In this document: one piece after another, positions 8,148 through 21,774 of the stretch
Layout: each line of letters begins with the position of its first letter
Position numbering within the stretch: position 1 is the first letter of the stretch
Assembly: GCF_021290385.1 (NCBI RefSeq)
Contig: NZ_CP089928.1
Span: 124,001-188,000, forward strand
Reading direction: 5' to 3'
From: Microbulbifer sp. YPW16
GTDB taxonomy: Bacteria; Pseudomonadota; Gammaproteobacteria; Pseudomonadales; Cellvibrionaceae
DNA length: 64,000 nt
The notes under the pieces: model-generated
What the model saw: only the letters and a program-made list of their open reading frames with translations
What the model was told of the DNA's origin: nothing
Database searches by the model: none
Translations under genes and position numbers: made by a program

Positions 8148-10121
8148 TTATCCGTTGGCACTTTGCTGACTGAGATTCTCGATCTCGATACCGGGGCCGG
8201 GCTCCGCCAGCGGAAAGCCGAAAATACGGCTGTAAAACTCCAGCTCTGCAGACAGTGCCATCTTGATACTGTCGGCGGCGCGGAAGCCGTGCCCCTCCTC
8301 GGCAAAGGTAATGTAGGCCACGGGAATACCCTGCTGACGCAGGGCATCGACCATCGCTTCGGCCTGGTTGGGCGGCACCACTTTGTCTTCCATCCCCTGG
8401 AATACAATCACCGGGCAGTTGAGTTGCTCCACGTGATTGATCGGCGAGCGTGCACGGTACAGCGCTTCCGCAGCGGGCCACGGACCCACCAGCTTGTCCA
8501 GGTAGCGGGATTCGAATTTATGGGTGTCGCGGGCAAGCGTGGTGAGGTCGCCGACGCCATAAAGGCTGGCGCCGGCCTTGAAAGTGTGATGGAAAGTGAG
8601 GGCGGCCAGCACGGTATAGCCCCCGGCACTGCTGCCCTTGACCAGGAGCCGCTGCGGATCCGCAAGGCCCTTCGCAACCAGGTATTCCGCCCCGGCACAG
8701 ACATCCTCTACATCCAGCACGCCCCAGCCATCCTTGAGGCGGTCGCGGTAGGCGCGGCCATAGCCGGTGCTGCCGGAGTAATTGACGTCCAGTACGGCAA
8801 ACCCGCGACTGGTCCAGTACTGTATTTTCAGGTTTAGCCCGGCTGAGGTGGCCCCGGTGGGACCACCGTGGCTGAGGACTAGCAGCGGTGGCAACTCGTC
8901 CCCGGGACCGGTGTAGTCCGGGTTCTGCGGCGCGTAATAGAAGGCAAATACGTTCCGGTCGCCCACCGGGTACTGGATAGCCTGGGCCTGGGAGAAATTG
9001 TTTGCGGGCAGCCCTGCGCTATTGCTGCGGGCGATCTTGGTGAGTTGCCCGGAGTGGTCGTCAAAAGCGACTACTGAGGAAAAATCGCCGGGGGATGCGG
9101 CGATGAATACCGCCTTATGGCTCTCGCAGTGCAGGCTCTCGATATCGCAGTAAGGTTGCTCGATTCGCTCATGACCCCCGCCTTCCAGGTCAATGCGCCC
9201 GAGCTGCCAGCGACCCTCTTCGGTGTAGGTACAGAGTATCGAGTCACTGGTCAGGAAACTGTAAGTGGACATACCAAAGACCCACTGCGGCGTGGCGAAC
9301 TCGGCGTCCTTCTCCCATATCGGTTTATCGTCGCCGCGACGATAGATATTCCACCAGTTACTGCGATCAGAAACATAGAACAGTTCACCCCCGGGGGACC
9401 ACTGGGGCTGGAAGATTGATTCCTCCGCGCCGCCGGCAATGACTTCGATATTTCCGGGAATGCCGTCTTCATCCAGGTTTGCCAGGCAAAGCTCGGTTCC
9501 ATCCCAGGGCATATTGGGATGGAACCAGCGCAGGAAACTGAGCCGCTGGCCGTCCGGGCTGAGCCGGGGGTTGGAGTAGAAGTCAGCTCCCTCTACCAGC
9601 ACATCGGGTTCACCCTGCGTGGCAGTTTCCCCCAGTGGGACAGCCACAATGCGTGCCACTGGTTCATCGCCGCCTTCACATGGGCGGTAGTCCTCCTGGA
9701 TACAGACCAGGCGATTGTGGTGCTGGTCCAGGGAAAAATCTGCGTAGCGGCAGGGATCATCCGGTGTGAGAGGCTGTGGCTCGCCACCCTCCAGCGGCAT
9801 CCGGTAAATGCGCTGGTCCGTTGCGAGCACAAAGTACACCTGGTCCCCTGCAACCAGGTAGCTGGCGCCGCCATATTCATGCGCCTTGGAGCGGACACTG
9901 AGCGGGGCAGGGGTGATATCCCGGGTACCATGCTCCGGGCAGTGCTGGACCAGGACCGAGCGCCCCTTTTCTGCCGGGCGGGATTCCAGCCAGTAATAGC
10001 GGCCGTCTACCAGGCTTGCTTCACCGAGTCGCACGCTGCCCTTTACCAGGAGGTCGGCGGTAACGGCAGATTTCCAGCTGCCGTAGGGTGCGGCGGTAAT
10101 GCCGTTGGGCTGCTCGCTCAT
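8148..10121 (-). CDS. S9 family peptidase (prolyl oligopeptidase-like, acylaminoacyl/dipeptidyl peptidase)
   Basis: A 657-residue cytoplasmic serine peptidase. The N-terminal 380 residues form a WD-like beta-propeller (repeated blades such as PRLSPDGQRLSFLRW and PQWSPGGELFYVSDRSNWW). The C-terminal alpha/beta hydrolase domain has the nucleophile in GSSAGGY, the acid in GMEDKVVPP and the histidine in EEGHGF. No signal peptide is seen. The family hydrolyses short peptides, often releasing N-terminal dipeptides or acylated residues. The start at 10121 has GGAG eight bases upstream. It reads away from the BKACE gene; the 26-bp palindrome at 10247 lies in their shared upstream region, so coregulation is possible but unproven. 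Confidence 0.92.
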   Translation of the reverse strand: MSEQPNGITAAPYGSWKSAVTADLLVKGSVRLGEASLVDGRYYWLESRPAEKGRSVLVQHCPEHGTRDITPAPLSVRSKAHEYGGASYLVAGDQVYFVLATDQRIYRMPLEGGEPQPLTPDDPCRYADFSLDQHHNRLVCIQEDYRPCEGGDEPVARIVAVPLGETATQGEPDVLVEGADFYSNPRLSPDGQRLSFLRWFHPNMPWDGTELCLANLDEDGIPGNIEVIAGGAEESIFQPQWSPGGELFYVSDRSNWWNIYRRGDDKPIWEKDAEFATPQWVFGMSTYSFLTSDSILCTYTEEGRWQLGRIDLEGGGHERIEQPYCDIESLHCESHKAVFIAASPGDFSSVVAFDDHSGQLTKIARSNSAGLPANNFSQAQAIQYPVGDRNVFAFYYAPQNPDYTGPGDELPPLLVLSHGGPTGATSAGLNLKIQYWTSRGFAVLDVNYSGSTGYGRAYRDRLKDGWGVLDVEDVCAGAEYLVAKGLADPQRLLVKGSSAGGYTVLAALTFHHTFKAGASLYGVGDLTTLARDTHKFESRYLDKLVGPWPAAEALYRARSPINHVEQLNCPVIVFQGMEDKVVPPNQAEAMVDALRQQGIPVAYITFAEEGHGFRAADSIKMALSAELEFYSRIFGFPLAEPGPGIEIENLSQQSANG

Positions 10122-10246: not shown

Positions 10247-10272
10247 ACAAACCAAGCAATTGCTTGGTTTGT
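10247..10272. promoter_or_regulatory. Perfect 26-bp palindrome, probable TetR-family operator
   Basis: The sequence centred at 10259/10260 is a perfect inverted repeat with 13 matched pairs; its core reads ACCAAGCAATTGCTTGGT (10251-10268). It lies 117 bases before the BKACE start and 125 bases before the divergent S9 peptidase start. The core arms ACCAAGC/GCTTGGT with a 4-base spacer are identical to those at 20873-20890 beside the TetR gene. This makes it a strong operator candidate for that regulator. Confidence 0.75.
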
Positions 10273-10389
10273 GTTCTGTTCCAGCCGGCCCGGATTGCGG
10301 CCTGCGGCGCGAATTCCACTATGCCCCGGGATGGCGAGGTGCTTGCCCCGGGCCCGGGTTCCAATAAAGATAATTCAGGAGTCCTGCCC

Positions 10390-11244
10390 ATGTCCGATGA
10401 AGTTGTCATTACCTGTGCCCTGACCGGCGTGCTCACCAATCCCCAGCAGCACCCGGTACCGGTCACGCCGGAAGAAATGGCTGCCTCTGCCCGCGAGGCC
10501 TTCGATGCCGGGGCGTCGGTGATGCATGTGCATTTCCGTTCCCAGGAACCGGGTATGGGACACCTGCCCAGCTGGGATCCCCAGGTGGCCGTGGCCATTG
10601 CCGAGGCGATTCGCCATGCCTGTCCGGGCGTAATCCTCAACTTCAGCACCGGCACCATCGGTCGGGACCAGCAGGGCGCGCTGGACTGCATTCGTGCCGG
10701 GCGGCCGGAAATTGCCGCCTGCAATGCCGGCAGCCTCAATTACCTGAAAGCCCGTTCGAATGGCACCTGGGCCTGGCCGCCGATGTTGTTCGAGAACACG
10801 GTGGAGAAAATTGAGGAGTTACTGGAGGTCTGCCGCGAGACCGGCACACGGCCGGAGTTCGAGTGCTTTGATGTGGGCATTGTCCGCTCTGTTGGTATGT
10901 TCAGCGATGTAGGTATGGTCGAGCAGCCCAACTATAACCTGGTGATGGGAGTCGCCTCGGGCATGCCCGCGGACCCGGACCTGCTGCAACTATTAACGCG
11001 ATACATGCATGAAGGAACCCTGTGGCAGAGTACGGTGATCGGGCGCCAGGAAATCTGGGCACTGCACCGCAAGACCGCCGAACTTGGCGGCCACCTGCGC
11101 AGTGGGGTGGAGGATACTTTCTACCTCTCGGATGGCTCGCGTACCAGTGGCAATGGCCCGTTGATCGAGGCGCTGGTTAATTTGGCGGAGGAAGCCGGTC
11201 GTACCGTCGTGTCCCCGCAGCGGGCGCGGGAGATTTTCCTCTAG
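10390..11244 (+). CDS. Beta-keto acid cleavage enzyme (BKACE, DUF849 family)
   Basis: A 284-residue BKACE (3-keto-5-aminohexanoate cleavage enzyme family). The Zn-binding HVH motif is at 46-48 (MHVHFR). The family TIM barrel is evident from LNFSTGT, AACNAGSLNY and FECFDVG. It normally condenses a beta-keto acid with acetyl-CoA to give acetoacetate and a new acyl-CoA. The start at 10390 is backed by AGGAG seven bases upstream; the frame is open further upstream without support. The operator at 10247 ties it to the TetR regulator at 20921. The AGCS symporter follows 160 bases downstream on the same strand. Substrate unknown; regulation hints at a branched or terpenoid beta-keto acid. Confidence 0.88.
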   Translation: MSDEVVITCALTGVLTNPQQHPVPVTPEEMAASAREAFDAGASVMHVHFRSQEPGMGHLPSWDPQVAVAIAEAIRHACPGVILNFSTGTIGRDQQGALDCIRAGRPEIAACNAGSLNYLKARSNGTWAWPPMLFENTVEKIEELLEVCRETGTRPEFECFDVGIVRSVGMFSDVGMVEQPNYNLVMGVASGMPADPDLLQLLTRYMHEGTLWQSTVIGRQEIWALHRKTAELGGHLRSGVEDTFYLSDGSRTSGNGPLIEALVNLAEEAGRTVVSPQRAREIFL

Positions 11245-11404
11245 GGGCATGGGCCCCGTCGCCGGCAGGGGACCAACCGGTCTGCCACGGGTCATATAGT
11301 TCCCTCGGGGTAAACTAGTCTTAAACGCAGGTGTAGTCTTTTCCGCCACCAGTTGCGGGCCGGTGTCGTGCCCGCAAACCGGGGCCAACCAGCGGAGTGG
11401 CCGA

Positions 11405-12883
11405 ATGCAATCCTTCCTTGATGCACTCTCGACAGTAATCGGCTGGGGCAACTCCCTTGCCTGGGGGGGGATCGGTGGTTTCTGGTGGCTGGGAGTCCTG
11501 ATTGCGGCGTTGTTGCCCGCAGGCCTTTACTTCACCATACGCAGCCGGTTCATCCAGTTCCGCGCTTTCGGTCATATGCTCTACGTCATGCGCTGTAGCC
11601 TGCGCCGCGAGCACTATGACTCGGTTTCCTCATTTGAGGCCTTTGCCACCAGTGCCGCCGCCAGGGTCGGGACCGGTAATATTGCCGGTGTGGCGGTGGC
11701 GATTACGGCCGGTGGCCCGGGGGCTGTCCTGTGGATGTGGCTTGTGGCCCTGGTGGGCATGGCCACCAGTTTTGTGGAAAACACCCTGGCGCAGACCTAT
11801 AAGGAGCGCGGGGAGGAGCACGGTACTTTCCGTGGCGGCCCCGCCTATTACATCGAGAAAGGCCTGGGTCGCCAGTGGAAATGGCTGGCGGTGGTGTTCT
11901 CGATTTTCCTGGTGATCAGTTTCGGCTTCTTCTTTAACGCCGTGCAGGCCAATGCAATGGCTTCTGCTATCAGCGCCGCGTTCGAGATAAACCCGCTGCT
12001 GGTGGGAGTGATTGTTGCCCTGGTGGCGGCAATGATCGTTTTCGGGGGGATTCATACCATCGGCCGCTTTGCCGGGCTGGTGGTACCGGTGATGGCGCTG
12101 GCCTACCTGGCCATTGCGATCCTGGTGATCTTTATGAACCTGGGTGAGCTGCCATCCGTGCTGGGCCTGGTAGTCAGCAATGCCTTCGGCGTGCAGGAAG
12201 CCGGGGCGGGTGCTTTCGGGGCGGTTGTTGCCAATGGCATCAAGCGTGGTCTTTTCTCCAATGAGGCCGGTATGGGCTCATCACCCAACGTGGGTGCCGC
12301 GGCGGACGTAAAGCACCCGGCGGTCCAGGGCTATGTGCAGATGGCGTCAGTATTCCTGGATACCATCCTGATCTGTACGGCGACAGCGGCGATCATCCTG
12401 CTGGCTGATGTGCATATGGTGGGTGACATCGAGGGCGTGACCCTGACCCAGGATGCGCTGGCCAGCGAAGTGGGCAGCTGGGGCAGCGGCTTTATTGCCA
12501 TCGCGCTGATCTTCTTTGCCTTTACCTCCATCATTGCCAATTATTACTACGCGGAAACCAATATTTTCTACCTCTGGCACACCCGCACATCGATCCTCTG
12601 TTACCGGGCACTCTATATCCTGTTTATCCTCTTTGGTGCCTGGGTGGCGGCCAGTGGCAGCTCCGACAATTTCGCGCTGCTGTGGAATATGGCCGATATG
12701 TCCATGGGCTTTATGGCGACGGCGAACCTGCTGGCGATGCTGTTACTGTCCGGGGTGGCATTCCGGGTAATGGCTGACTACGAGGAACAGCGCGCGCGGG
12801 GCATTGACCAGCCGATGTTCGATGCACGCAAGCACAATATCCCGGGGGTGGAGCACGATGTCTGGGACGCTGATCGCTGGTAA
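11405..12883 (+). CDS. AGCS-family sodium:amino-acid symporter
   Basis: A 492-residue inner-membrane symporter with about 11 hydrophobic segments. The AGCS signature region is clear: FATSAAARVGTGNIAGVAVAITAGGPGAVLWMW (about 78-110) and the later GLFSNEAGMGSSPNVGAAA. The family couples uptake of alanine, glycine or related amino acids to Na+. The start at 11405 is preceded by GGAG. It follows the BKACE gene and may be cotranscribed, although 160 bases separate them and an own promoter is possible. It converges on the acyl-CoA dehydrogenase gene with only 27 bases between stops. Confidence 0.93.
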   Translation: MQSFLDALSTVIGWGNSLAWGGIGGFWWLGVLIAALLPAGLYFTIRSRFIQFRAFGHMLYVMRCSLRREHYDSVSSFEAFATSAAARVGTGNIAGVAVAITAGGPGAVLWMWLVALVGMATSFVENTLAQTYKERGEEHGTFRGGPAYYIEKGLGRQWKWLAVVFSIFLVISFGFFFNAVQANAMASAISAAFEINPLLVGVIVALVAAMIVFGGIHTIGRFAGLVVPVMALAYLAIAILVIFMNLGELPSVLGLVVSNAFGVQEAGAGAFGAVVANGIKRGLFSNEAGMGSSPNVGAAADVKHPAVQGYVQMASVFLDTILICTATAAIILLADVHMVGDIEGVTLTQDALASEVGSWGSGFIAIALIFFAFTSIIANYYYAETNIFYLWHTRTSILCYRALYILFILFGAWVAASGSSDNFALLWNMADMSMGFMATANLLAMLLLSGVAFRVMADYEEQRARGIDQPMFDARKHNIPGVEHDVWDADRW

Positions 12884-12910
12884 CTGTCCCTCTCTTCTCT
12901 GTGGTTGCCG

Positions 12911-14104
12911 TCAGATTCCCATCTGCCGCGACGCCAGGTCCCGCAGGATTTCCTCGGAACCGCCGCCGATCGCGTTGACCCGGACTTCGCGGTAAATGCG
13001 TTCCGTGCGGCTGCCACGCATATAGCCCGCGCCTCCCATAACCTGCATGGCTTCGCGGGCACAGAGTTCCATGGTTTCGGTGGCCTGCACCTTCAGCAGT
13101 GATACATCGGCAACCCCGAGTTCACCACGCTGCTCGGCAGCGGCACAGAGTTCCAGGTAGGCGGCGGTGGCGTTGATGCGCTGCAGCATCTGCGCAAACT
13201 TGTGGCGGATTACCTGGTGGTCGGCGAGCCGCTTGCCGAATGTCTTGCGCTCCCTTGCCCAGTCGATCGCTTCCTGCAGGCAGACGCGACTGTACTCTAC
13301 GCAGGACGCGGCGATGCCGAGTCGTTCGCTGTTAAAATTGTGCACGATCGGCAGGAAACCGGCATTCTCCTCCCCGACCAGGTTGGCCCTCGGGACGCGA
13401 ACCCCGTCGAAGAAAATACTGGCAGTGTCGGAGCACCACCAGCCCTGTTTCTGCTCCAGCGCCTGGCGCTCCACGCCGGCTGCATCGGCCGGGATCAGCA
13501 GCAGGGAAATTCCCCCGAAGCCTTCGCCGCCAGTGCGCACCGCGGCGGTGAACCAGTTGGCCCGCATACCACCGGTGATAAAGGTCTTTTCGCCGCGGAC
13601 GATAAAGTCATCGCCATCCCGCTCGGCGCGGCACTGCAGGTTGGCAACATCTGAGCCGGCACCGGGCTCGGTGACCGCGAGGGCAATATGCCTTTCGCCG
13701 CGCAGTACCGGGGGAATCACCGCCTCCCTGAGGGCGGGACTGCCGTAATGGACGACTGGTGGCAGGGCGATGCCGTGCACCATCAGGCTGGCGTAAAGCC
13801 CGCCCGCGCCACACCGGGCGAGTTCTTCGGCGGCGACAATGGTGTGGAATATATCCCCGGGAATGCCGCCGTAGGCTTCGGGATAACCGAGAGGTAACAG
13901 GCCGACATCCGCCGCTTTGGGCCACAGCTCCTGTGGCAATTGGCCTTCCTCATCCCACTGGCTGACAAATGGTGCAATCTCTCGATCGACGAAACGGCGC
14001 AGTTGCTCGCGCCATTGATGATGCTCGTCGGTGCGGAAGGGGCTGTACAGGCGGCTGGAATCAATGTCGAACACAGGCTGTCCCTCTGGTAACCGTTGAT
14101 GCAC
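12911..14104 (-). CDS. Acyl-CoA dehydrogenase, last gene of the atu-like operon
   Basis: A 397-residue flavin acyl-CoA dehydrogenase. Seen are the FAD/substrate loop ALAVTEPGAGSDVANLQ, the second signature KTFITGG and the C-terminal signature QVMGGAGYMRGSRTERIYREVRVNAIGGGSEEIL. A glutamate in GGGSEEIL is at the position of the catalytic base in the isovaleryl/short-chain group. It lies 13 bases after the biotin carboxylase stop, so it belongs to the same transcript. It is distinct from the dehydrogenase at 16983, and Pseudomonas atu clusters have no second one at this place. It could act on a later chain-shortened intermediate. Confidence 0.9.
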   Translation of the reverse strand: MHQRLPEGQPVFDIDSSRLYSPFRTDEHHQWREQLRRFVDREIAPFVSQWDEEGQLPQELWPKAADVGLLPLGYPEAYGGIPGDIFHTIVAAEELARCGAGGLYASLMVHGIALPPVVHYGSPALREAVIPPVLRGERHIALAVTEPGAGSDVANLQCRAERDGDDFIVRGEKTFITGGMRANWFTAAVRTGGEGFGGISLLLIPADAAGVERQALEQKQGWWCSDTASIFFDGVRVPRANLVGEENAGFLPIVHNFNSERLGIAASCVEYSRVCLQEAIDWARERKTFGKRLADHQVIRHKFAQMLQRINATAAYLELCAAAEQRGELGVADVSLLKVQATETMELCAREAMQVMGGAGYMRGSRTERIYREVRVNAIGGGSEEILRDLASRQMGI

Positions 14105-14117
14105 TTTGGTGGCCGGG

Positions 14118-16169
14118 TCAGGATGCGGCGGTGGACTGCTCGGCGGAGGAGAGCATTGCTTCCGGTTCTATCCGTACCAGCAATTGCCCACCGCGTACCT
14201 GCTCCCCGGGCCGTGCGGCAAGTTCAGCGATGACACCGTCGCAGTCGGCCCTGAGCGCATGCTCCATTTTCATCGCCTCAACCACTGCGACGGAATCGCC
14301 CTTGCGGACCGGCTGGCCCTGTTCCACACAGAGCTCAACCACGGTGCCATCCATGGGAGCCTTGAGGGTGCCGCTCGCCGGCCCTTCCATTGTACGTGCC
14401 GGGGCATGGGTACAGTCCCGCCATGCCAGCTGCCTGCCCCCGACCAGGGTAACCAGCTCGGAGGCGCGGTGATGAAAGACGACAGTTTCCTCCACTCCAT
14501 CGACTGCCAGCAGCACCTGCTTTTCAGCAGAGCGCATCAGTGCCATCTCGAGGGTCAAGCCTTCGCAGTGGACACGATAATGCCGCGCGCGAAGTGGGAG
14601 CAGCTGGCACTCGAAACTGTTATTTTCCTGTTGCAGGCGGTAAACCAGTGGTGTGCTGTGATCGCCGCTGCGCCAGTCAGCCCGATGGCGGCGCAGGTCT
14701 GCAGGATCGAGCAGGCCGTGATGCATCAGCACTACTGCGATGGCGGCGTGCCGGGGAGTCGCCTGGGCACTCTCCGGGGCCTCAACAAGGTATCTTCCCT
14801 CATTGCCCAGGAATGCAGTTGTGGCCTGGCCGGCGGCAAATAGCGGGTCGGCCACCAGCCGGTTGAGGAAATAGCCATTATGTTTCGGGCCGATCAGTTC
14901 GAGCCGCGCCAGGGCGTCGAGCATGCGCAGCCGGGCCTGTTCCCGGTCCCGGCCGGCGGTAATCAGTTTGCCCAGCATGGGGTCATAATACGGGCTGACA
15001 AGGCCACCGTTGATGACCGCGTGATCGCAACGGATACCATCACCGGCAGGTGTCCGCCAGTGGAGTACCTCGCCGGTCTGGGGCAGGAAATCGCGATCCG
15101 GGTCTTCCGCATAGAGTCGTACCTCGATGGCATGGCCACAAAGCTGGATCTCGTCCTGGGTCACTGGCAGCGGCTCACCACGGGCGACGGACAGTTGCCA
15201 GGCTACCAGGTCGAGGCCGGTGACCATCTCGGTCACCGGGTGCTCAACCTGCAGGCGGGTATTCATTTCCAGAAAGTAAAAGTTCCCGCTTTCGTCCAGC
15301 AGGAATTCCACTGTGCCGGCACCGCGATAATCGCAGGCGCCCGCTGCCGCGATAGCCGCGCTACCCATGCGCTGGCGCAGGCCAGTATCTACTGCGGGGG
15401 AGGGGCTCTCCTCAACAATTTTCTGGTGCCGCCGCTGGACCGAGCAATCCCGCTCGCCCAGGTGGACAATATTGCCATGGTTGTCGGCGAAGACCTGGAC
15501 CTCTACGTGACGGGCATTGACCAGTGCTTTTTCCAGGATAACTTCGTCGCTGCCAAAGGCACTGCGGGCCTCGCTGCGGGCTGAGCGCAGGTGGGCCTGC
15601 AATTCCTCGGCGGATTCCACCAGCCGCATGCCGCGGCCACCACCGCCATCGGCGGCCTTGATCATCAGCGGGTAGCCGATCTCTTCAGCAGCGCGGACCA
15701 GGTCGTTGTCGTCAGCGACCGCGTCACCGGCGGCAAAGCCAGGTATGCAGGGAACCCCGGCATCAGCCACGAGCGCCTTCGCGCGGCGCTTGTTGGCCAT
15801 GGCCTCGATGGCCTGCGCCGGCGGGCCGACAAAAAGAAGCCCGCTTTCCGCACATGCGCGGGCGAAATCGGCATTTTCCGAGAGAAAACCGTAGCCCGGG
15901 TGCACGGCGTTAGCGCCAGCCCGTTGCGCGGCATCGAGTATCTTGCCGATATCCAGGTAGGATTCCTGTGGACTGCACCCGCCAATGGCGACGGCGGTAT
16001 CGGCCATGCGCGCGTGCAGGGCGTCCCTGTCCGGCTCACTGTAGATGGCCACCGTACGGTACCCCTCACTGCGAGCAGTGCGGATAATGCGCACGGCGAT
16101 TTCGCCCCGGTTGGCCACCAGAAGTGTGGGGCGGGCGGACGCTGGTGACTTCTCTGGTATCTGCATCAT
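14118..16169 (-). CDS. atuF: Acyl-CoA carboxylase alpha subunit (biotin carboxylase + BCCP), AtuF/LiuD-like
   Basis: A 683-residue biotin-dependent carboxylase subunit. It has the N-terminal biotin carboxylase domain (LLVANRGEIAVRIIRTAR; ATP-grasp KAADGGGGRGMR; HVEVQVFADNHGN; EMNTRLQVEHPVTE), a linker domain, and the C-terminal biotinyl domain with the acceptor Lys634 in VEAMKMEH. The start used is the ATG at 16169, which overlaps the hydratase stop as ATGA; a GTG at 16181 is an alternative. It pairs with the carboxyltransferase at 18240. Sequence alone does not separate methylcrotonyl- from geranyl-CoA carboxylase; the TetR gene and gene order favour the geranyl type. The atu symbol is by synteny. 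Confidence 0.85.
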   Translation of the reverse strand: MMQIPEKSPASARPTLLVANRGEIAVRIIRTARSEGYRTVAIYSEPDRDALHARMADTAVAIGGCSPQESYLDIGKILDAAQRAGANAVHPGYGFLSENADFARACAESGLLFVGPPAQAIEAMANKRRAKALVADAGVPCIPGFAAGDAVADDNDLVRAAEEIGYPLMIKAADGGGGRGMRLVESAEELQAHLRSARSEARSAFGSDEVILEKALVNARHVEVQVFADNHGNIVHLGERDCSVQRRHQKIVEESPSPAVDTGLRQRMGSAAIAAAGACDYRGAGTVEFLLDESGNFYFLEMNTRLQVEHPVTEMVTGLDLVAWQLSVARGEPLPVTQDEIQLCGHAIEVRLYAEDPDRDFLPQTGEVLHWRTPAGDGIRCDHAVINGGLVSPYYDPMLGKLITAGRDREQARLRMLDALARLELIGPKHNGYFLNRLVADPLFAAGQATTAFLGNEGRYLVEAPESAQATPRHAAIAVVLMHHGLLDPADLRRHRADWRSGDHSTPLVYRLQQENNSFECQLLPLRARHYRVHCEGLTLEMALMRSAEKQVLLAVDGVEETVVFHHRASELVTLVGGRQLAWRDCTHAPARTMEGPASGTLKAPMDGTVVELCVEQGQPVRKGDSVAVVEAMKMEHALRADCDGVIAELAARPGEQVRGGQLLVRIEPEAMLSSAEQSTAAS

Positions 16170-16993
16170 TGCTGCTGCCACTCCGGGGGGCGCTTCTCAA
16201 TAAAGGCCCGGGTTCCCTCTCGGCCCTCGTGGCCCTGGACCGCATCGGAAAACTGTCGTGCAGCGTGGTCCAGCAGTTGGTCGAGGTCGCCAGCGAGCGG
16301 TACGGGGCTGCTGTCGAGGAGCAGCCGCTTGGTGGCGGCGAGCGCATCTGGTGCGCAGCGACCCACCGCCGCGAGCTGCTGTGCTACTGCGGTATCGAGT
16401 TCCCTTGCGTCTTTCACCGATGCGTGCACCAGGCCGATGCGCAGGGCCTCTCCGGCACCGATACTGGCGCCGGCGAGCGCCAGCCTGCGGGTCTGCGATG
16501 ACCCGATACGCGCAACGATAAATGGGGCCACCTGTGCCGGCAGCAGGCCCAGGCGGGTTTCCGGCAGGGAGAAGCGGGCGGTCTCGCTGGCAATGGCGAT
16601 GTCGGCGACGCAGGCCAGGCCCAGGCCGCCACCCATAATGGCCCCCTCGAGCGCAGCGATGGTTACCAGCGGTGAGCATTCGAAGCGTTGCAGCAGTTCG
16701 CCGAAACGGCGATTCATGGTTGCGAATGCATCGCTATCGCCGGCCTCGACCCGCTGCTGTGCGGCGAGCAGGTCAGTGACATCTGCGCCGGCGGAGAAAT
16801 TCTCCCCGGAACCGCGCAATACCAGTGCGCGGATTGCCGGGTCCTGTTCGGCCTGCTCCAGTTGCGCCAGTAGCCCACCCACCATCTGCAGGCTGAGGGC
16901 ATTGCGCTGGTCCGGGCGGTTCAGGGTCAGGAAAACTGCATGCCCCTCGTGGCGGGCCAGCAGTTCACCGCTTACTGTTGTGTCAGTGTGCAC
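16166..16993 (-). CDS. atuE: Enoyl-CoA hydratase/isomerase, AtuE/LiuC-like
   Basis: A 275-residue crotonase. The oxyanion-hole segments are FSAGADVTDL and EGAIMGGGLGLACVADIAIA, followed by FSLPETRLGLLPAQVAPFIV, a pattern shared with methylglutaconyl/isohexenylglutaconyl-CoA hydratases. In the proposed pathway it hydrates the carboxylated enoyl-CoA. The start was set at a GTG (16993) because GGAGG lies nine bases upstream; an ATG at 17020 would overlap the preceding gene by 38 bases. It overlaps the carboxylase gene by four bases. Role depends on the atu reading of the cluster. Confidence 0.82.
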   Translation of the reverse strand: MHTDTTVSGELLARHEGHAVFLTLNRPDQRNALSLQMVGGLLAQLEQAEQDPAIRALVLRGSGENFSAGADVTDLLAAQQRVEAGDSDAFATMNRRFGELLQRFECSPLVTIAALEGAIMGGGLGLACVADIAIASETARFSLPETRLGLLPAQVAPFIVARIGSSQTRRLALAGASIGAGEALRIGLVHASVKDARELDTAVAQQLAAVGRCAPDALAATKRLLLDSSPVPLAGDLDQLLDHAARQFSDAVQGHEGREGTRAFIEKRPPEWQQQ

Positions 16994-18194
16994 GCTGGGT
17001 TGCCTCCGCTTTGCCGGCATTTGAGCCCGTCGCTTCGGGTTTTCTCGCCCGGGGCAGAATCCCCATCAGTTTGCAGATGATGCCCAGCATTACCTCGTCT
17101 GCCCCCCCGCCGATGGCAGTGAGCCGCGAGTCCCGGTAGGCGCGGTTGATGGGCGTCTCTTCCATGTAGCCCATGCCCCCCCAGAACTGCAGGCACTGGT
17201 CGGGAATGGAGCGGGCCAGGCGCCCGGATTTCAGTTTGGCCATGGATGCGAGCGTGGTGACGTCCTCGCCCGCCACGTAAGCTTCTGTGGCGCGCCAGGT
17301 GAGCGCCCGCAGGCATTCCACCTCGGTCTGCATCTCTGCAAGGTTGAAATGCACCGTCTGGTTATCCAGCAGGGGGCCGCCAAAAACGTCGCGTTCACGG
17401 GTGTAGTTGATGGTGGACGAGACACAGTTTTCCAGGCCGCGAATAGTCAGCAGGGCACCGGCCAGGCGTTCCTCCTGGAACTGCAGCATCTGCAGCAGGA
17501 AGCCGTCGCCCTCGTTGCCGATACGATTACCCTGTGGGACCCGGACATTGTCGAAAAATACCGGTGCGGTTTCCGAGGAGCGCATGCCCATTTTTTTCAA
17601 CCGGTCCCCGACCCGGACGCCGGGCGCGTCGGCGGGAATAACCAGCAGGGACTTGTTCCGGTGGGGCTTGCCCTCGCCGGTGTTCACCAGGGTGCAGAAA
17701 AAGTCGGCCCGGGGGGCATTGGTGATCCACATCTTGCTGCCATTAACAAGGTAGTCATCACCGTCCGGAATGGCCGTGGTTTTGACACCGGCCACATCGG
17801 AGCCGGCACCCGGTTCGGACACGGCGATGGCGCCGATCATTTGTCCGCTAATCGCCGGGAGGAGAAACTCTTCCCTGAGTGCGTCGCTGGCGAAATTGGC
17901 CAGCGCCGGTGTCGCCATGGCGGTCTGTACCGCAATTGCCAGCGGCACACCGCCACAGTGGGCCGCGCCAAGCTCCTCGAGGAAGACCGCCTCGTAGCTG
18001 AAATCGAGGCCCAGGCCGCCGTACTCGGTGGGCTTGCTGATGCCCAGCAAACCCAGTTCCCCCAGTTTTCCGAACAGCTCCCGGGTGGGGAATTCGCCCG
18101 CTTCCTCCCATTCGGTAACATGGGGATTGATTTCGCGCTCGACAAAATTGCGCACGGTGCGCTGAAGCTCGCGATGCTCGTCAGTCAGTATCAT
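16983..18194 (-). CDS. atuD: Acyl-CoA dehydrogenase, AtuD-like (citronellyl-CoA dehydrogenase type)
   Basis: A 403-residue acyl-CoA dehydrogenase. The first signature is AIAVSEPGAGSDVAGVKTTA, the second KMWITNAPRADFF, and the C-terminal signature runs from LQFWGGMGYMEETPINRAYRD into LTAIGGGADEVMLGIICKLMG. As I remember the P. aeruginosa AtuD sequence, the segments FQEERL, ASMAKLK and DEVMLGIICKL are shared, which supports a citronellyl-CoA dehydrogenase role, but no alignment was run. It sits between carboxyltransferase and hydratase exactly as atuD does. The stop overlaps the hydratase start. The C-terminal 20 residues are an Ala/Lys-rich tail with no evident role. Confidence 0.82.
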   Translation of the reverse strand: MILTDEHRELQRTVRNFVEREINPHVTEWEEAGEFPTRELFGKLGELGLLGISKPTEYGGLGLDFSYEAVFLEELGAAHCGGVPLAIAVQTAMATPALANFASDALREEFLLPAISGQMIGAIAVSEPGAGSDVAGVKTTAIPDGDDYLVNGSKMWITNAPRADFFCTLVNTGEGKPHRNKSLLVIPADAPGVRVGDRLKKMGMRSSETAPVFFDNVRVPQGNRIGNEGDGFLLQMLQFQEERLAGALLTIRGLENCVSSTINYTRERDVFGGPLLDNQTVHFNLAEMQTEVECLRALTWRATEAYVAGEDVTTLASMAKLKSGRLARSIPDQCLQFWGGMGYMEETPINRAYRDSRLTAIGGGADEVMLGIICKLMGILPRARKPEATGSNAGKAEATQRAH

Positions 18195-18239
18195 GGCGTT
18201 GTCCCTGATTCCTTGAACCTGGTTACCAGTCCGGCGCGG

Positions 18240-19847
18240 CTAGAACCTCGCCACACCGAAAGTATTTTTCCGCTGCGGCGCCAGTTCTGCTTCCCGGCAT
18301 ATTTCCAGCAGCATACCCAGCAGCCTGCGGGTATCGCGCGGATCGATGATACCGTCGTCCCACAGCCGCGCACTGCAGGAGAGGGCGTCCGAGCCGGCCT
18401 CCATGAAGGCGGCGGTGTCCTGCTCCAGTTTGTCCAGTGATGCCTCGTCGACAGCGCCGGCACGCTGCATTTTCTGCTCGGTCACTATCCGCAGCACCTT
18501 GCCCGCCTGCGCTGCACCCATCACCGCGGTGCGCGAGTTTGGCCAGGCAAAAATGAAGCGCGGGTCGAACCCGCGGCCGCACATGGCGTAATTGCCGGCG
18601 CCGTAAGAGCCACCGATCACGATGCTGATCTTGGGCACACTGGCATTGGCCACCGCCTGGATCATCTTGGAGCCGTGCTTGATGATGCCGTTGCGCTCGA
18701 CTTCCGTGCCGACCATAAAGCCGGTGGTATTGTGCAGGAAGAGCAGGGGAGTGTTGCCCTGCTCGCACAGCTGGATGAACTGCGCCGCCTTGTTCGCCCC
18801 GGGGGGAGTGATAGGGCCATTGTTGCCAATTATCCCGATCACGCGGCCCTCGATCCGGGCATGGCAGCACACCGTCTGCCGGTCAAACTCCGGCTTGAAA
18901 TCGAGGATGGCGGAGTCGTCGACCAGGCGCGCCAGCACTTCGCGCACATCATAGGGGCGCCTGCTGTCGGCAGGAATCAGCCCCAGTAGCTCTTCCTCGG
19001 GGTGACGGGGAGGGCGCCAGTCTTCCGTAGCCGTTGCTGGTGTTCCAGCGGGCAGGGCGGCGATTATCTCGCGGGCCATGCGGATACCATCGGCATCGTC
19101 TTCGGCCAGGTAGTCGCCGCTGCCGGATTGCCGGCAGTGCATTTCGGCACCGCCCAGGGTTTCCTCGTCGGCGATTTCACCGGTGGCGGCTTTCAGGAGT
19201 GGGGGGCCTGCCAGGTACATTCCGGTCTGTCCCCGGACCATTACCACATAGTCGGACAGGCCCGGTTGGTAGGCCCCACCGGCTGTGGCCCCCCCATGCA
19301 CCACGGTGACCTGGGGGATGCCGGCAGCGGACATGCGGGCCTGGTTGGCAAACCCGCGACCGCCGGGCGCAAACGTCTCGTTGGCGAACATCAGGTTGGC
19401 GCCGCCACTCTGGGCCAGGGTAACCACAGGCAAGTGGTTTTCCCGTGCGATCTGCTGCATGCGCAGTGCCTTGTCCATTCCCGCCGGCGAGATGGTGCCC
19501 CCCTTTACTGCATAATTGTCGACGCGCACCATGCAGCGTCGGCCGCTGATCCTGCCGATGCCGCAGATGGCGCCGCCACCGGCACCGCTGCCGTCGTTAT
19601 CGTCGTAGAGCCGGTAGCCCGCCAGGGAACAGAGTTCAATAAATGGGGCGCCGGGATCCAGCAGGCGGTTGAGCCTCTCCCGGGGCAGGAGCCAGCCGCG
19701 CTGGCGATAGCGATCGCCTTTGTCCGCCGCCACTGCCACCGGGCGTTGTTCGGCCTCGCGGAAGCGCGCGATGGCCTGGAGCATGGCTTCGCGGTTTTCG
19801 GCGAACTCCGCCGACCCTGTTTCCACCTGTGACTCGATTGGCTGCAT
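18240..19847 (-). CDS. atuC: Acyl-CoA carboxylase beta subunit (carboxyltransferase), AtuC-like
   Basis: A 535-residue carboxyltransferase. Key segments: QSGGANLMFANETFAPGG, GGATAGGAYQPGLSDYVV, FLAGPPLLK-like YLAGPPLLKAATG, and the C-terminal NNGPITPPGANKAAQFIQLC and GGSYGAGNYAMCGRGF. Methylcrotonyl-CoA carboxylases usually read GGAYVPAMADE where this has GGAYQPGLSDY, a difference I associate with geranyl-CoA carboxylase (AtuC). The start ATG at 19847 overlaps the SDR stop by one base and has GGAGG ten bases upstream. It forms the carboxylase with the alpha subunit at 14118. Confidence 0.82.
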   Translation of the reverse strand: MQPIESQVETGSAEFAENREAMLQAIARFREAEQRPVAVAADKGDRYRQRGWLLPRERLNRLLDPGAPFIELCSLAGYRLYDDNDGSGAGGGAICGIGRISGRRCMVRVDNYAVKGGTISPAGMDKALRMQQIARENHLPVVTLAQSGGANLMFANETFAPGGRGFANQARMSAAGIPQVTVVHGGATAGGAYQPGLSDYVVMVRGQTGMYLAGPPLLKAATGEIADEETLGGAEMHCRQSGSGDYLAEDDADGIRMAREIIAALPAGTPATATEDWRPPRHPEEELLGLIPADSRRPYDVREVLARLVDDSAILDFKPEFDRQTVCCHARIEGRVIGIIGNNGPITPPGANKAAQFIQLCEQGNTPLLFLHNTTGFMVGTEVERNGIIKHGSKMIQAVANASVPKISIVIGGSYGAGNYAMCGRGFDPRFIFAWPNSRTAVMGAAQAGKVLRIVTEQKMQRAGAVDEASLDKLEQDTAAFMEAGSDALSCSARLWDDGIIDPRDTRRLLGMLLEICREAELAPQRKNTFGVARF

Positions 19848-20740
19848 CAGAGTTTGCCCTCCGCCTCGAGTTCGGTGACCACAGCCGGTTTTACGCTGCG
19901 ATGGAATCCCTCGAAGCGCTTGCGGTTCCTGGCCGGGGCCGGTTGCCACAACGGGGAGTGGTGCTTGAGACTGGAGCCACCATCGATGCGCAGGGTCTGT
20001 CCGGTAATGTAGCCGGCGGCTTCGGATAGCAGGAAGCATACCGCCGCGCTGATCTCGGCCTCCTCACCCAGCCGGTAAAGGGGAATGCTGTCGCGAAACC
20101 CAGGAAGCAGTTGGCGCAGGAAATCCGGGTCATAGGTATCGAAACCGCTGGAGAGAACGTAACCGGGGGCGACCGCGTTCACGCGCACGCCGCTGGCTGC
20201 CCATTCCACCGCGGCGGTTTCCGTCAGGTTGTCCATACCGGCGCGGGCAGCACCGGAGTGCCCCATGAGGGGCATGCCGCCCGCATTGTCGGCGGTGATA
20301 TTGACAATGGCGCCACCGTCGCGCTTCATCGACTGGGTGTAAACCTCCCGCGCCATCAGGAAGCCACCCAGCAGGTTGCTGCGAACCACTGCCTCGAACC
20401 CCCGGGCTGAAATCTGCTCGAGCTGCGAGGGAAACTGGCCGCCGGCATTGTTGACCAGGCCATGGATACGGTGGTGGTCCCTGAGGATGGTGCCCACGGT
20501 CGCGCGCACACCGTCCTCGTCGCGGATATCGAGGCAGTGGTAGCTGCTGTCGCCGCCATCCTCCCTTATCTCACCGCTTACGCGTTGTAACTTCTCTTCA
20601 GTGCGGCCGACCAGCACCACGTGGGCACCGAGGCTGGCCAGTTCATGAGCTATGCAGCGACCGATACCACTGCCGCCGCCGGTGACAATATGGACCTGGT
20701 CGGCAAAGCTGCCCGGTCGCAATTGGCTCTGGTAGGGCAT
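19847..20740 (-). CDS. SDR oxidoreductase, PECR-like, first gene of the atu-like operon
   Basis: A 297-residue short-chain dehydrogenase/reductase. It has the NADP(H) motif TGGGSGIG (about 20-27) and NNAGG. In place of the usual YxxxK active site it has GHSGAARAGMDNL, which closely follows peroxisomal trans-2-enoyl-CoA reductase (PECR), as do NAVAPGYV and the C-terminal FITGQ-like YITGQTLRIDGG. It is therefore more likely an enoyl-CoA reductase than an alcohol dehydrogenase. The position corresponds to atuB in Pseudomonas. The start at 20740 has GGAG seven bases upstream. The operon promoter and operator lie in the 180 bases between this gene and the TetR gene. Confidence 0.85.
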   Translation of the reverse strand: MPYQSQLRPGSFADQVHIVTGGGSGIGRCIAHELASLGAHVVLVGRTEEKLQRVSGEIREDGGDSSYHCLDIRDEDGVRATVGTILRDHHRIHGLVNNAGGQFPSQLEQISARGFEAVVRSNLLGGFLMAREVYTQSMKRDGGAIVNITADNAGGMPLMGHSGAARAGMDNLTETAAVEWAASGVRVNAVAPGYVLSSGFDTYDPDFLRQLLPGFRDSIPLYRLGEEAEISAAVCFLLSEAAGYITGQTLRIDGGSSLKHHSPLWQPAPARNRKRFEGFHRSVKPAVVTELEAEGKL

Positions 20741-20872
20741 GGAGCTCTCCTGTCTACCGTGTGACCCTGGGGTTGTTATTGTTTGTGCGGTTACCCGGGA
20801 CCCGGCAGTTGCGCGAATTTTGCTGGCAGCATCTTGCACGGGACGGGCACATTGAGCATGATGGTCAACGCT

Positions 20873-20890
20873 ACCAAGCAAGCGCTTGGT
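20873..20890. promoter_or_regulatory. Inverted repeat ACCAAGC-N4-GCTTGGT, probable TetR operator
   Basis: The sequence ACCAAGCAAGCGCTTGGT has perfect 7-base arms with a 4-base spacer. It lies in the divergent promoter region of the SDR-led operon (start 20740) and the TetR gene (start 20921). It matches the core of the palindrome at 10247-10272 in 16 of 18 positions. The likely function is autoregulation and repression of the operon by the adjacent TetR protein; AtuR in Pseudomonas is known to bind inverted repeats in the equivalent intergenic region. Confidence 0.75.
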
Positions 20891-20920: not shown

Positions 20921-21577
20921 GTGTCGGGCAGTAATGCGGTGGCGAAGAGTGGTGCGAAGTCGGGGGCTGGATCCGCGGAACTGGTGCAGGCGCTGGTGGC
21001 GGGCGGGGAGCTGACTGACCCGGATTCGCCGCGGGGGCGACTGCTCAACGCGGCGGCTCGGCTGTTTGTGGAAAAAGGTTTTGCGCGCACCACAGTGCGG
21101 GATATTGCCGCTGAAGTGGGGATACTGTCCGGCAGTATTTTCCACCATTTCCGCAGCAAGGAGGCCATTCTCTGCCAGGTGATGCGGGAAGTAACGACCT
21201 TCGCGCGGGCGCGCATGGAGCAGGCGGTTACCCGGGAGCGCTCACCTCGGGGCAGGCTGAGGGCCTGCATACTCTGCGAGCTGGAAGCCATCCACGGTAG
21301 GGCCGTGCCCGGCTTTACCATCCTGGTATCGGAATGGCGGAGCCTGAGCCCGGAGAGCCAGAAGCAGGTCCTGCGCCTGCGGGAGGGCTATGAGCAGCTG
21401 TGGCGGGAGGTGCTGGCAGATGCCGGCCGGATGGATGATCCGGCGCTGGCCCGGCGACTGCTGCAGGGCGCACTGTCCCACAGTTACAACTGGTACCGGC
21501 CGAAAAGGCAGGGCTTGTCGCTGGATGAGCTGGCCGGGCAGGTCCTCTCCCTGTTCGCCCGCCAGGGCGCTGCCTGA
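20921..21577 (+). CDS. atuR: TetR-family transcriptional regulator, AtuR-like
   Basis: A 218-residue TetR regulator. The helix-turn-helix spans about residues 40-85 (LLNAAARLFVEKGFARTTVRDIAAEVG, then SGSIFHHFRSKEAIL). The rest is an alpha-helical ligand-binding domain. An unusual Ser/Ala/Gly-rich N-terminal extension of about 35 residues precedes the DNA-binding domain. It starts at a GTG (20921) after GGGGGTGAG, and no nearer ATG precedes the HTH. It is divergent from the carboxylase operon and flanked by the inverted repeat at 20873. In Pseudomonas AtuR represses the terpene operon and is released by pathway intermediates; I infer the same here. Confidence 0.85.
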   Translation: MSGSNAVAKSGAKSGAGSAELVQALVAGGELTDPDSPRGRLLNAAARLFVEKGFARTTVRDIAAEVGILSGSIFHHFRSKEAILCQVMREVTTFARARMEQAVTRERSPRGRLRACILCELEAIHGRAVPGFTILVSEWRSLSPESQKQVLRLREGYEQLWREVLADAGRMDDPALARRLLQGALSHSYNWYRPKRQGLSLDELAGQVLSLFARQGAA

Positions 21578-21774
21578 GCAGTATGCATGCTTGCTGCTGA
21601 GACGCGGTTATCACTCGGTGTGTGTGCGACCACGCTTTTTTCCCGGAATGACCCTTATGGGCCAGGGGCTGTGAGAACCAGTGCCCACCCTGGCCAATAA
21701 TAATAAATTAGTCTTCGTGCACACTGCCCGACACCCCGGGAAAATAACAGGAACAAGTGTCACCGGAGCGCGCG

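Follow-up and report, generated by a model that had tools for sequence, protein, structure and literature searches.

The closest described relatives of the system considered here are AtuR with atuABCDEFGH in Pseudomonas aeruginosa and Pseudomonas citronellolis and RdmA with the dmg genes in Pseudomonas nitroreducens, in which the gene for a TetR-family regulator lies divergent from an operon for geranyl-CoA carboxylase (GCC). AtuR of P. aeruginosa is described as binding the repeats AGCAAGCGCTTGG and CCAAGCGCTTGCT, and RdmA, an AtuR homologue with the same repeats, as controlling the breakdown of diffusible signal factor (DSF) (PMC9973270). KstR2, the mycobacterial TetR regulator of cholesterol use, is a further relative. 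A separate literature deals with beta-keto acid cleavage enzymes (BKACE/Kce, PF05853, formerly DUF849), described as turning a beta-keto acid plus acetyl-CoA into an acyl-CoA plus acetoacetate, with beta-ketohexanoate among the known substrates of one member (PMC11961710). Our search found no published link of BKACE or DUF849 to terpene or geranyl-CoA breakdown; one review, in the parts of it available, mentions keto acid cleavage enzyme or DUF849 and terpene without linking them, and the main BKACE survey (Bastard et al. 2014), outside this search, may say more.

We analysed a 64,000-nt stretch of Microbulbifer sp. YPW16 (NZ_CP089928.1, positions 124,001 to 188,000; hereafter the window), whose genome is one contig of 4,194,587 bp. 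Two near-identical palindromic sites stand 10 kb apart in it, one before a BKACE gene and the other between a TetR gene and a GCC operon. Comparison with related genomes makes it likely that both are operators of a single AtuR-type TetR repressor and that BKACE is a dedicated pathway enzyme replacing AtuA. The repressor and operator are of a known kind; the BKACE target and the exchange with AtuA are new to us.

Two copies of one dyad in the window

The elements that carry the argument are the following.

10251-10268, no strand: site 1, putative operator, ACCAAGC-N4-GCTTGGT with centre AATT (ACCAAGCAATTGCTTGGT), core of a 26-bp perfect palindrome at 10247-10272
10390-11244, + strand: BKACE (PF05853), 284 aa, 263.7 bits against a cut-off of 24.8
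20873-20890, no strand: site 2, putative operator, same arms with centre AAGC (ACCAAGCAAGCGCTTGGT), between the TetR gene and the GCC operon
20921-21577, + strand: TetR-family regulator, AtuR-type (TetR_N and TetR_C_24 domains)

Site 1 lies between the divergent genes for an S9 peptidase and BKACE, 121 bp upstream of the BKACE ATG. Site 2 contains the reported AtuR repeat AGCAAGCGCTTGG as an exact 13-mer at 20877-20889, and the TetR gene is divergent from the GCC operon, as in the Pseudomonas systems. An earlier, sequence-only reading of this DNA had placed both sites at these positions, with 16 of 18 positions identical and the first inside a perfect 26-bp palindrome, and each of these details is correct. 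It had also held that two matching copies 10 kb apart are very unlikely to arise by chance, and the counts bear this out: the exact motif occurs twice in the window and in 0 of 100 dinucleotide shuffles, and the base composition of the window predicts 0.017 exact copies for the genome. If three mismatches are tolerated, the 2 matches in the window do not exceed chance (mean 3.67); the signal thus lies in the exactness of the motif. Among dyads with 7-bp arms and a spacer of 0-8, only that of ACCAAGC is present twice in the window. Any repeated 7-bp-arm dyad appeared in 1 of 30 mononucleotide shuffles, and one with spacer 4 in 0 of 30. Such dyads are in themselves not rare (10 with spacer 4 in the window), and the rarity consists in two of them sharing one sequence.

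A search of the whole genome, the check that the sequence-only reading had proposed, returned no large family of copies: exact copies exist at sites 1 and 2 alone, and one-mismatch copies number 0. Two-mismatch copies number 8, against 1 for a reversed control pattern. Seven of the 8 fall inside mechanical open reading frames (ORFs) of at least 100 aa, which says little because both exact sites also lie inside such ORFs and the genome is GC-rich. We judged CCCAAGCCTTTGCTTGGG, a third genomic site that has two mismatches and forms a perfect dyad, to be a chance match; it falls in the opening part of a gene whose product has TolA-binding and TPR domains.

The TetR protein also resembles KstR2 (4W97, 70 bits), and the half-sites CAAG and CTTG are common to both systems. 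In the KstR2 motif AnCAAGnnCTTGnT, however, the half-sites are 2 bp apart, whereas CAAG and CTTG are 6 bp apart in the dyad here, and the gene content differs. The motif AnCAAGnnCTTGnT lies inside site 2 in a shifted register and does not occur in site 1. The KstR2-like register CAAGCGCTTG was ruled out as the true operator, given that the arms ACCAAGC and GCTTGGT are conserved and the centre varies. An Acidovorax TetR paper that names geranyl-CoA carboxylase concerns, in the parts of it available, other genes.

Conservation of site, regulator and BKACE in relatives

The comparison set comprised 48 genomes of the genus (this one included) within 144 of the family; relatedness among them inflates co-occurrence counts. 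The same 29 of the 48 genus genomes carry the exact motif, TetR, a close BKACE and the GCC beta (carboxyltransferase, CT) subunit, and the other 19 lack all four. Across the family the motif is found in 47 genomes, TetR in 43 and a close BKACE in 40; motif and TetR coincide in 42, TetR occurs alone in 1 (33% identity), the motif alone in 5, and 96 have neither. The five motif-only genomes (G026, G032, G041, G124, G125) show no relative of a window gene (E 1e-10) in loci of ~10 kb, and they are close to chance since the reversed control pattern matches 2 of 144.

The exact motif stands beside TetR in all 29 genus genomes that have the regulator, and before BKACE it is exact in 26 of 29 (own included) and has one mismatch in 2. 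This mostly holds where the genes are apart. The distance from BKACE to TetR is no more than ~12 kb in 17 of the 29 genomes (own included); in the other 12 BKACE is unlinked, from ~42 kb off to separate contigs; the site before these 12 genes is exact in 9, has one mismatch in 2 and is missing at two mismatches in 1 (G097). Among six further unlinked BKACE loci, from the wider order, three carry an exact site, two a site with one mismatch and one (G170) none. Elsewhere the genes adjoin: in a Simiduia-like genus (g27, 4/4) and a Pseudoteredinibacter-like genus (g24, 5/5) BKACE opens the GCC operon and diverges from TetR, and the site occupies the intergenic region between them. In an Exilibacterium-like genus (g11, 2/2) the genes are split, and each of the two places carries one site.

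A dyad search that was not given the motif returned the same element. ACCAAGC-N4-GCTTGGT was the commonest 7-bp-arm dyad both before TetR (86/96) and before BKACE (56/106), against 4/124 for the best dyad in coding controls, with near-copies of one genome kept in these counts. On a tree of the S9 peptidase (30 of 47 genomes, those with loci returned), it takes 5 changes to explain where the module is present and absent, and branches with good support compel at least 4 of these; the module has therefore been gained or lost several times. In the TetR protein, residues 66-76, which we assign to the recognition-helix region, have a mean majority share of 0.91 versus 0.59 for residues 100-210 (96 sequences).

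The operator kind extends beyond the genus. From 104 CT loci outside the genus we took the 40 with the best scores, all of them GCC loci of the order's other families. Of these, 38 have a TetR homologue and an exact or one-mismatch 18-bp site beside the operon, and the remaining 2 (L353, L287) start near the SDR gene (short-chain dehydrogenase/reductase) at a contig end. The centre follows RNNY across 137 distinct sites with no more than one mismatch, and is AAGC or GCTT in 112 of them. Among 60 distinct BKACE-side sites it is AAGC or GCTT in 42 and another sequence in 18, of which 3 have AATT, so the window's BKACE-side centre is a minority form.

The centre of site 1 bears on a different account, in which TetR controls only the GCC operon, the palindrome before BKACE is bound by another regulator or is a structural element such as a terminator-like hairpin, and chance or shared descent of the DNA explains why the two sites are alike. 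A consensus scan labels the 26-bp palindrome terminator-like (1 found versus 0.2 expected), and site 1, with AATT between agreeing arms, lacks the published 13-mer. However, an intrinsic terminator on the BKACE side is unlikely: the tail GTTCTGTTCC has no clean T-run and the site stands between two divergent genes. Moreover, BKACE-side centres in relatives mostly match those of the TetR side, the arms are kept where BKACE is far away, and the exact motif is found in 0 of 19 genus genomes without TetR. We regard this account as very improbable.

The two AtuR repeats of Pseudomonas lie ~40 bp apart, and the window has a single site beside TetR. Two copies occur in several loci of the order, and in genus g24 (L157-L161) two putative operators, one exact and one with one mismatch, stand 36-37 bp apart (start to start) between TetR and BKACE and resemble the Pseudomonas pair. 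As a separate observation, the usual AAGC centre creates a third, overlapping CAAG half-site 4 bp off, which might let two dimers bind.

The GCC operon and the exchange of AtuA for BKACE

Six genes face TetR, in the order SDR, CT, acyl-CoA dehydrogenase, enoyl-CoA hydratase, BC (biotin carboxylase) and a second acyl-CoA dehydrogenase.

19847-20740, - strand: SDR, AtuB-like, first operon gene here (start ATG at 20740 chosen by us from the sequence)
18240-19850, - strand: GCC beta subunit, AtuC-like CT (5IKL_B, 802 bits)
16983-18194, - strand: acyl-CoA dehydrogenase 1, AtuD-like (domain match)
16166-17020, - strand: enoyl-CoA hydratase family, AtuE-like (gamma-carboxygeranoyl-CoA hydratase model, 166 bits, below the cut-off of 426)
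14118-16181, - strand: biotin carboxylase / biotin carrier alpha subunit, AtuF-like BC (domain match)
12911-14104, - strand: acyl-CoA dehydrogenase 2 (domain match)

The core order SDR-CT-dehydrogenase-hydratase-BC is that of AtuB to AtuF. Unlike the Atu system, this locus has no AtuA, has only one SDR and no acyl-CoA ligase in its six operon genes, and carries an extra putative operator before BKACE. The CT protein is nearest to the solved GCC beta subunit 5IKL_B (802 bits, versus 478 for the beta subunit 3U9R of 3-methylcrotonyl-CoA carboxylase, MCC). A Gly together with the absence of a three-residue insertion is described as separating GCC from MCC (PMC4673880). In the CT alignment the diagnostic Gly occupies the pocket position, by our count, without the three-residue MCC insertion before it; by these features and its overall likeness the operon is assigned to geranyl-CoA carboxylase. 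An MCC-type subunit and a gene for a lyase like 3-hydroxy-3-methylglutaryl-CoA (HMG-CoA) lyase (LiuE-type) lie at another place, 2.92 Mb, with ~3 kb between them.

In seven genus genomes (L109, L111, L115, L117, L118, L121, L150) the GCC operon consists of only CT, one acyl-CoA dehydrogenase and BC; TetR, site and BKACE are kept there, and SDR, hydratase and second dehydrogenase were not found (E 1e-10).

BKACE keeps company with GCC genes over a wide range. We took the best 80 of 566 loci by BKACE likeness (queries: 13 BKACE orthologues; some genomes also appear under G handles), which, going by record titles, span Gamma-, Alpha- and Betaproteobacteria and Myxococcota. CT or BC is in the locus in 51 of the 80, and in 40 of the 49 that have at least 9 kb on both sides; AtuA is in 1. 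In 39 of the 80, the 400 bp before BKACE contain a site with no more than one mismatch, and these include 16 of the 29 that lack a linked CT or BC. The 40 GCC loci taken from the order's other families show the converse, with AtuA in 37 and BKACE in none. In 36 of the 37, AtuA heads the operon next to TetR and the same operator; in L332 it stands behind BC. One of the three loci without AtuA, L352, belongs to a genome with an unlinked BKACE that carries an exact site. The order set includes 10 genomes outside the genus with a close BKACE, and in five of these (G464, G176, G240, G267, G424) BKACE is, by coordinates, within 10 kb of a GCC CT gene. No HMG-CoA lyase (query: the LiuE-type protein of this genome) was found in the BKACE or AtuA operons of the 80 and 40 loci.

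AtuA and BKACE belong to different Pfam families, and it is mostly the first-gene slot in which one replaces the other. Among 121 GCC loci, 63 have BKACE, 40 AtuA, 18 neither and 0 both; this set is not a random draw, with at least 4 genomes present twice and six loci chosen with their content known. Fourteen of the 18 loci with neither are in genomes with an unlinked BKACE, and L352 is the fifteenth. On a CT tree of 85 of the 121 loci the two states need 4 switches by parsimony, one of which rests on scoring L352 as BKACE-type for its genome's unlinked BKACE; near-copies and every second order locus were omitted from this tree, which came from a quick search and has long branches (L251, L214, L372 and others). 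The genome of strain YPW16 has 0 matches to PF07287 (AtuA), and 12 of the 144 family genomes have one. Five family genomes hold both proteins, with AtuA away from GCC (G097, G102, G104, G117, G118), and a weak two-piece match in G039 would make a sixth.

In one 8.9-Mb family genome, G113 (contigs C18, C21, C70), AtuA lies ~2 kb from GCC at three loci, and the five BKACE genes are distant. The genus members G104 (C1:3423116-3428768) and G102 (C17, C21) have AtuA and a further carboxyltransferase (47% identity), which in G104 are ~3 kb apart and may belong to a second GCC-like pathway.

Co-occurrence, the sites kept at unlinked BKACE genes, the first-gene position and the mutual exclusion with AtuA argue that TetR very probably controls both the GCC operon and BKACE, and that BKACE stands in for AtuA. 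The part of the sequence-only reading that put the carboxylase operon and BKACE under one TetR thus gains strong support from the comparisons. The exchange could also mean that BKACE, within the regulon, acts on another substrate, such as a DSF-type or longer isoprenoid acid, and that AtuA and BKACE differ in substrate range. RdmA, with the same repeats, serves DSF breakdown (PMC9973270), GCC also takes 3-methylcrotonyl-CoA (PMC4673880), and the set of dehydrogenases varies between operons. However, relatives of CT, dehydrogenase, hydratase and BC are common to both operon types, and the exchange falls mostly in the same first-gene slot. We hold such a difference in substrate to be unlikely, though it is the most serious of the alternatives.

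Neighbouring genes and the proposed pathway

Three further genes adjoin the module.

8148-10121, - strand: S9 peptidase, divergent from BKACE, probably a bystander
11405-12883, + strand: AGCS amino acid symporter, neighbour, probably outside the regulon
21757-24306, + strand: 849-aa protein, no Pfam match, follows TetR

The sequence-only reading had extended the regulon, as a possibility, to the S9 peptidase and the AGCS symporter, and the comparisons do not support this. S9 is present in 47 of the 48 genus genomes, with or without TetR, and no site with up to two mismatches was found near S9 in the 7 of 19 TetR-less genomes with a locus returned (~4.9 kb each). In 4 of these 7, S9 abuts AGCS and BKACE is lacking; in the other 3 it abuts the gene for the 849-aa protein. 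Six of the 28 other genus genomes that have BKACE do not have AGCS next to it: the fetched locus lacks AGCS in five (G110, G092, G102, G104, G097), and in G098 AGCS lies ~3.5 kb away. Both genes persist where TetR, BKACE and site are gone, and we rejected them as regulon members; they are probably bystanders, and site 1 may still influence S9 transcription. The same counts bear on the idea that BKACE, S9 and AGCS form a module for amino-acid or peptide use, with an incidental link to the carboxylase. In the genus the S9 and BKACE genes diverge and the next gene after BKACE is often AGCS, but in the loci from outside the genus BKACE occurs with GCC genes or alone, not with close S9 or AGCS relatives, and such a module is the least credible of the readings considered. 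The gene for the 849-aa protein adjoins TetR in 27 of 28 other genus genomes with TetR (37-77% identity), and its relatives beside S9 in the 3 TetR-less genomes have 48-50% identity.

BKACE matches PF05853 over its whole length and retains the HxH motif, whose residues we take to be zinc ligands. H46, H48, E156, E158, R237, E241 and D242 are identical in 107 of 107 loci (own included). Solved members of the family score at most 120 bits, and the position aligned with Glu20 of chain 2Y7D is Leu in all 107. By our count this Glu corresponds to Glu14 of Kce, presumably the binder of the substrate's amino group; a Leu in its place fits an uncharged chain.

An AtuR-type TetR would hold the GCC operon and the BKACE gene shut, and, by analogy with AtuR, a branched acyclic (isoprenoid) acid or the CoA ester of such an acid would release it. 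The BKACE gene of Microbulbifer, apart from the operon, would respond through its own copy of the operator. GCC and the hydratase would make 3-hydroxy-3-isohexenylglutaryl-CoA. The LiuE-type lyase encoded elsewhere in the genome would cleave this to acetyl-CoA and the free acid 7-methyl-3-oxooct-6-enoate, which BKACE would convert with acetyl-CoA into 5-methylhex-4-enoyl-CoA and acetoacetate. This step would spare a separate CoA activation. By HMG-CoA lyase chemistry the products of this cleavage would be acetyl-CoA and a free beta-keto acid, a substrate of just the kind that BKACE uses. Published accounts, in the parts available, give the products instead as acetate and 7-methyl-3-oxooctenoyl-CoA, and ascribe the step to AtuA (PMC4847356) or, in a review, to LiuE (PMC4097962).

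In another reading BKACE itself would be the lyase acting on 3-hydroxy-3-isohexenylglutaryl-CoA, the reaction proposed for AtuA, rather than act after LiuE. Part of the literature calls AtuA that lyase (PMC9973270, PMC4847356), and BKACE occupies AtuA's slot. Against a lyase role, the BKACE reaction is described as one of a beta-keto acid with acetyl-CoA (PMC11961710), the review assigns the lyase step to LiuE (PMC4097962), and the genome has an HMGL-like gene beside MCC. We think a lyase role for BKACE improbable and favour its action after LiuE.

Several observations weigh against control of BKACE by TetR or against the proposed step, beginning with the minority centre of site 1 and its lack of the 13-mer. 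In 41 of the 80 named loci the 400 bp before BKACE hold no site, even with two mismatches allowed; 28 of the 41 have CT or BC in the locus, and in 24 of these 28 BKACE directly follows BC. The operator link therefore holds for only part of the BKACE branch. Within the family, BKACE of G097 lacks the site, and G008 and G115 have site and TetR without a close BKACE, G008 having an AtuA-type GCC locus in its place. The close relative G007 (L373) has GCC genes beside AGCS and, in its 8-kb locus, no AtuA, BKACE, TetR or site; control and partner enzyme have been lost or moved there. The textbook lyase products would deprive BKACE of its free beta-keto acid. Finally, no gene for handling acetoacetate was found among 10 ORFs of 4 BKACE loci, 5 of which have no Pfam match and may be shadow ORFs.

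Two matching switches 10 kb apart suggest a tie between BKACE and genes for the breakdown of citronellol-like plant oils. Used as a tag, the conserved operator points to a likely substrate class for a BKACE branch to which our search attached no role. It also reveals AtuA and BKACE, though unrelated, as alternatives within a single pathway, and the lyase step ascribed to AtuA or LiuE thereby becomes directly testable with two purified enzymes. The chances seem to us evenly balanced that this branch is an unrecognised enzyme of acyclic-isoprenoid breakdown, widespread in Proteobacteria and Myxococcota and repeatedly swapped with AtuA, that would take up the free beta-keto acid from the hydroxyglutaryl-CoA lyase, move the chain onto CoA and release acetoacetate. 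If so, AtuA must solve the same problem by other means, which yields a prediction for its uncertain reaction.

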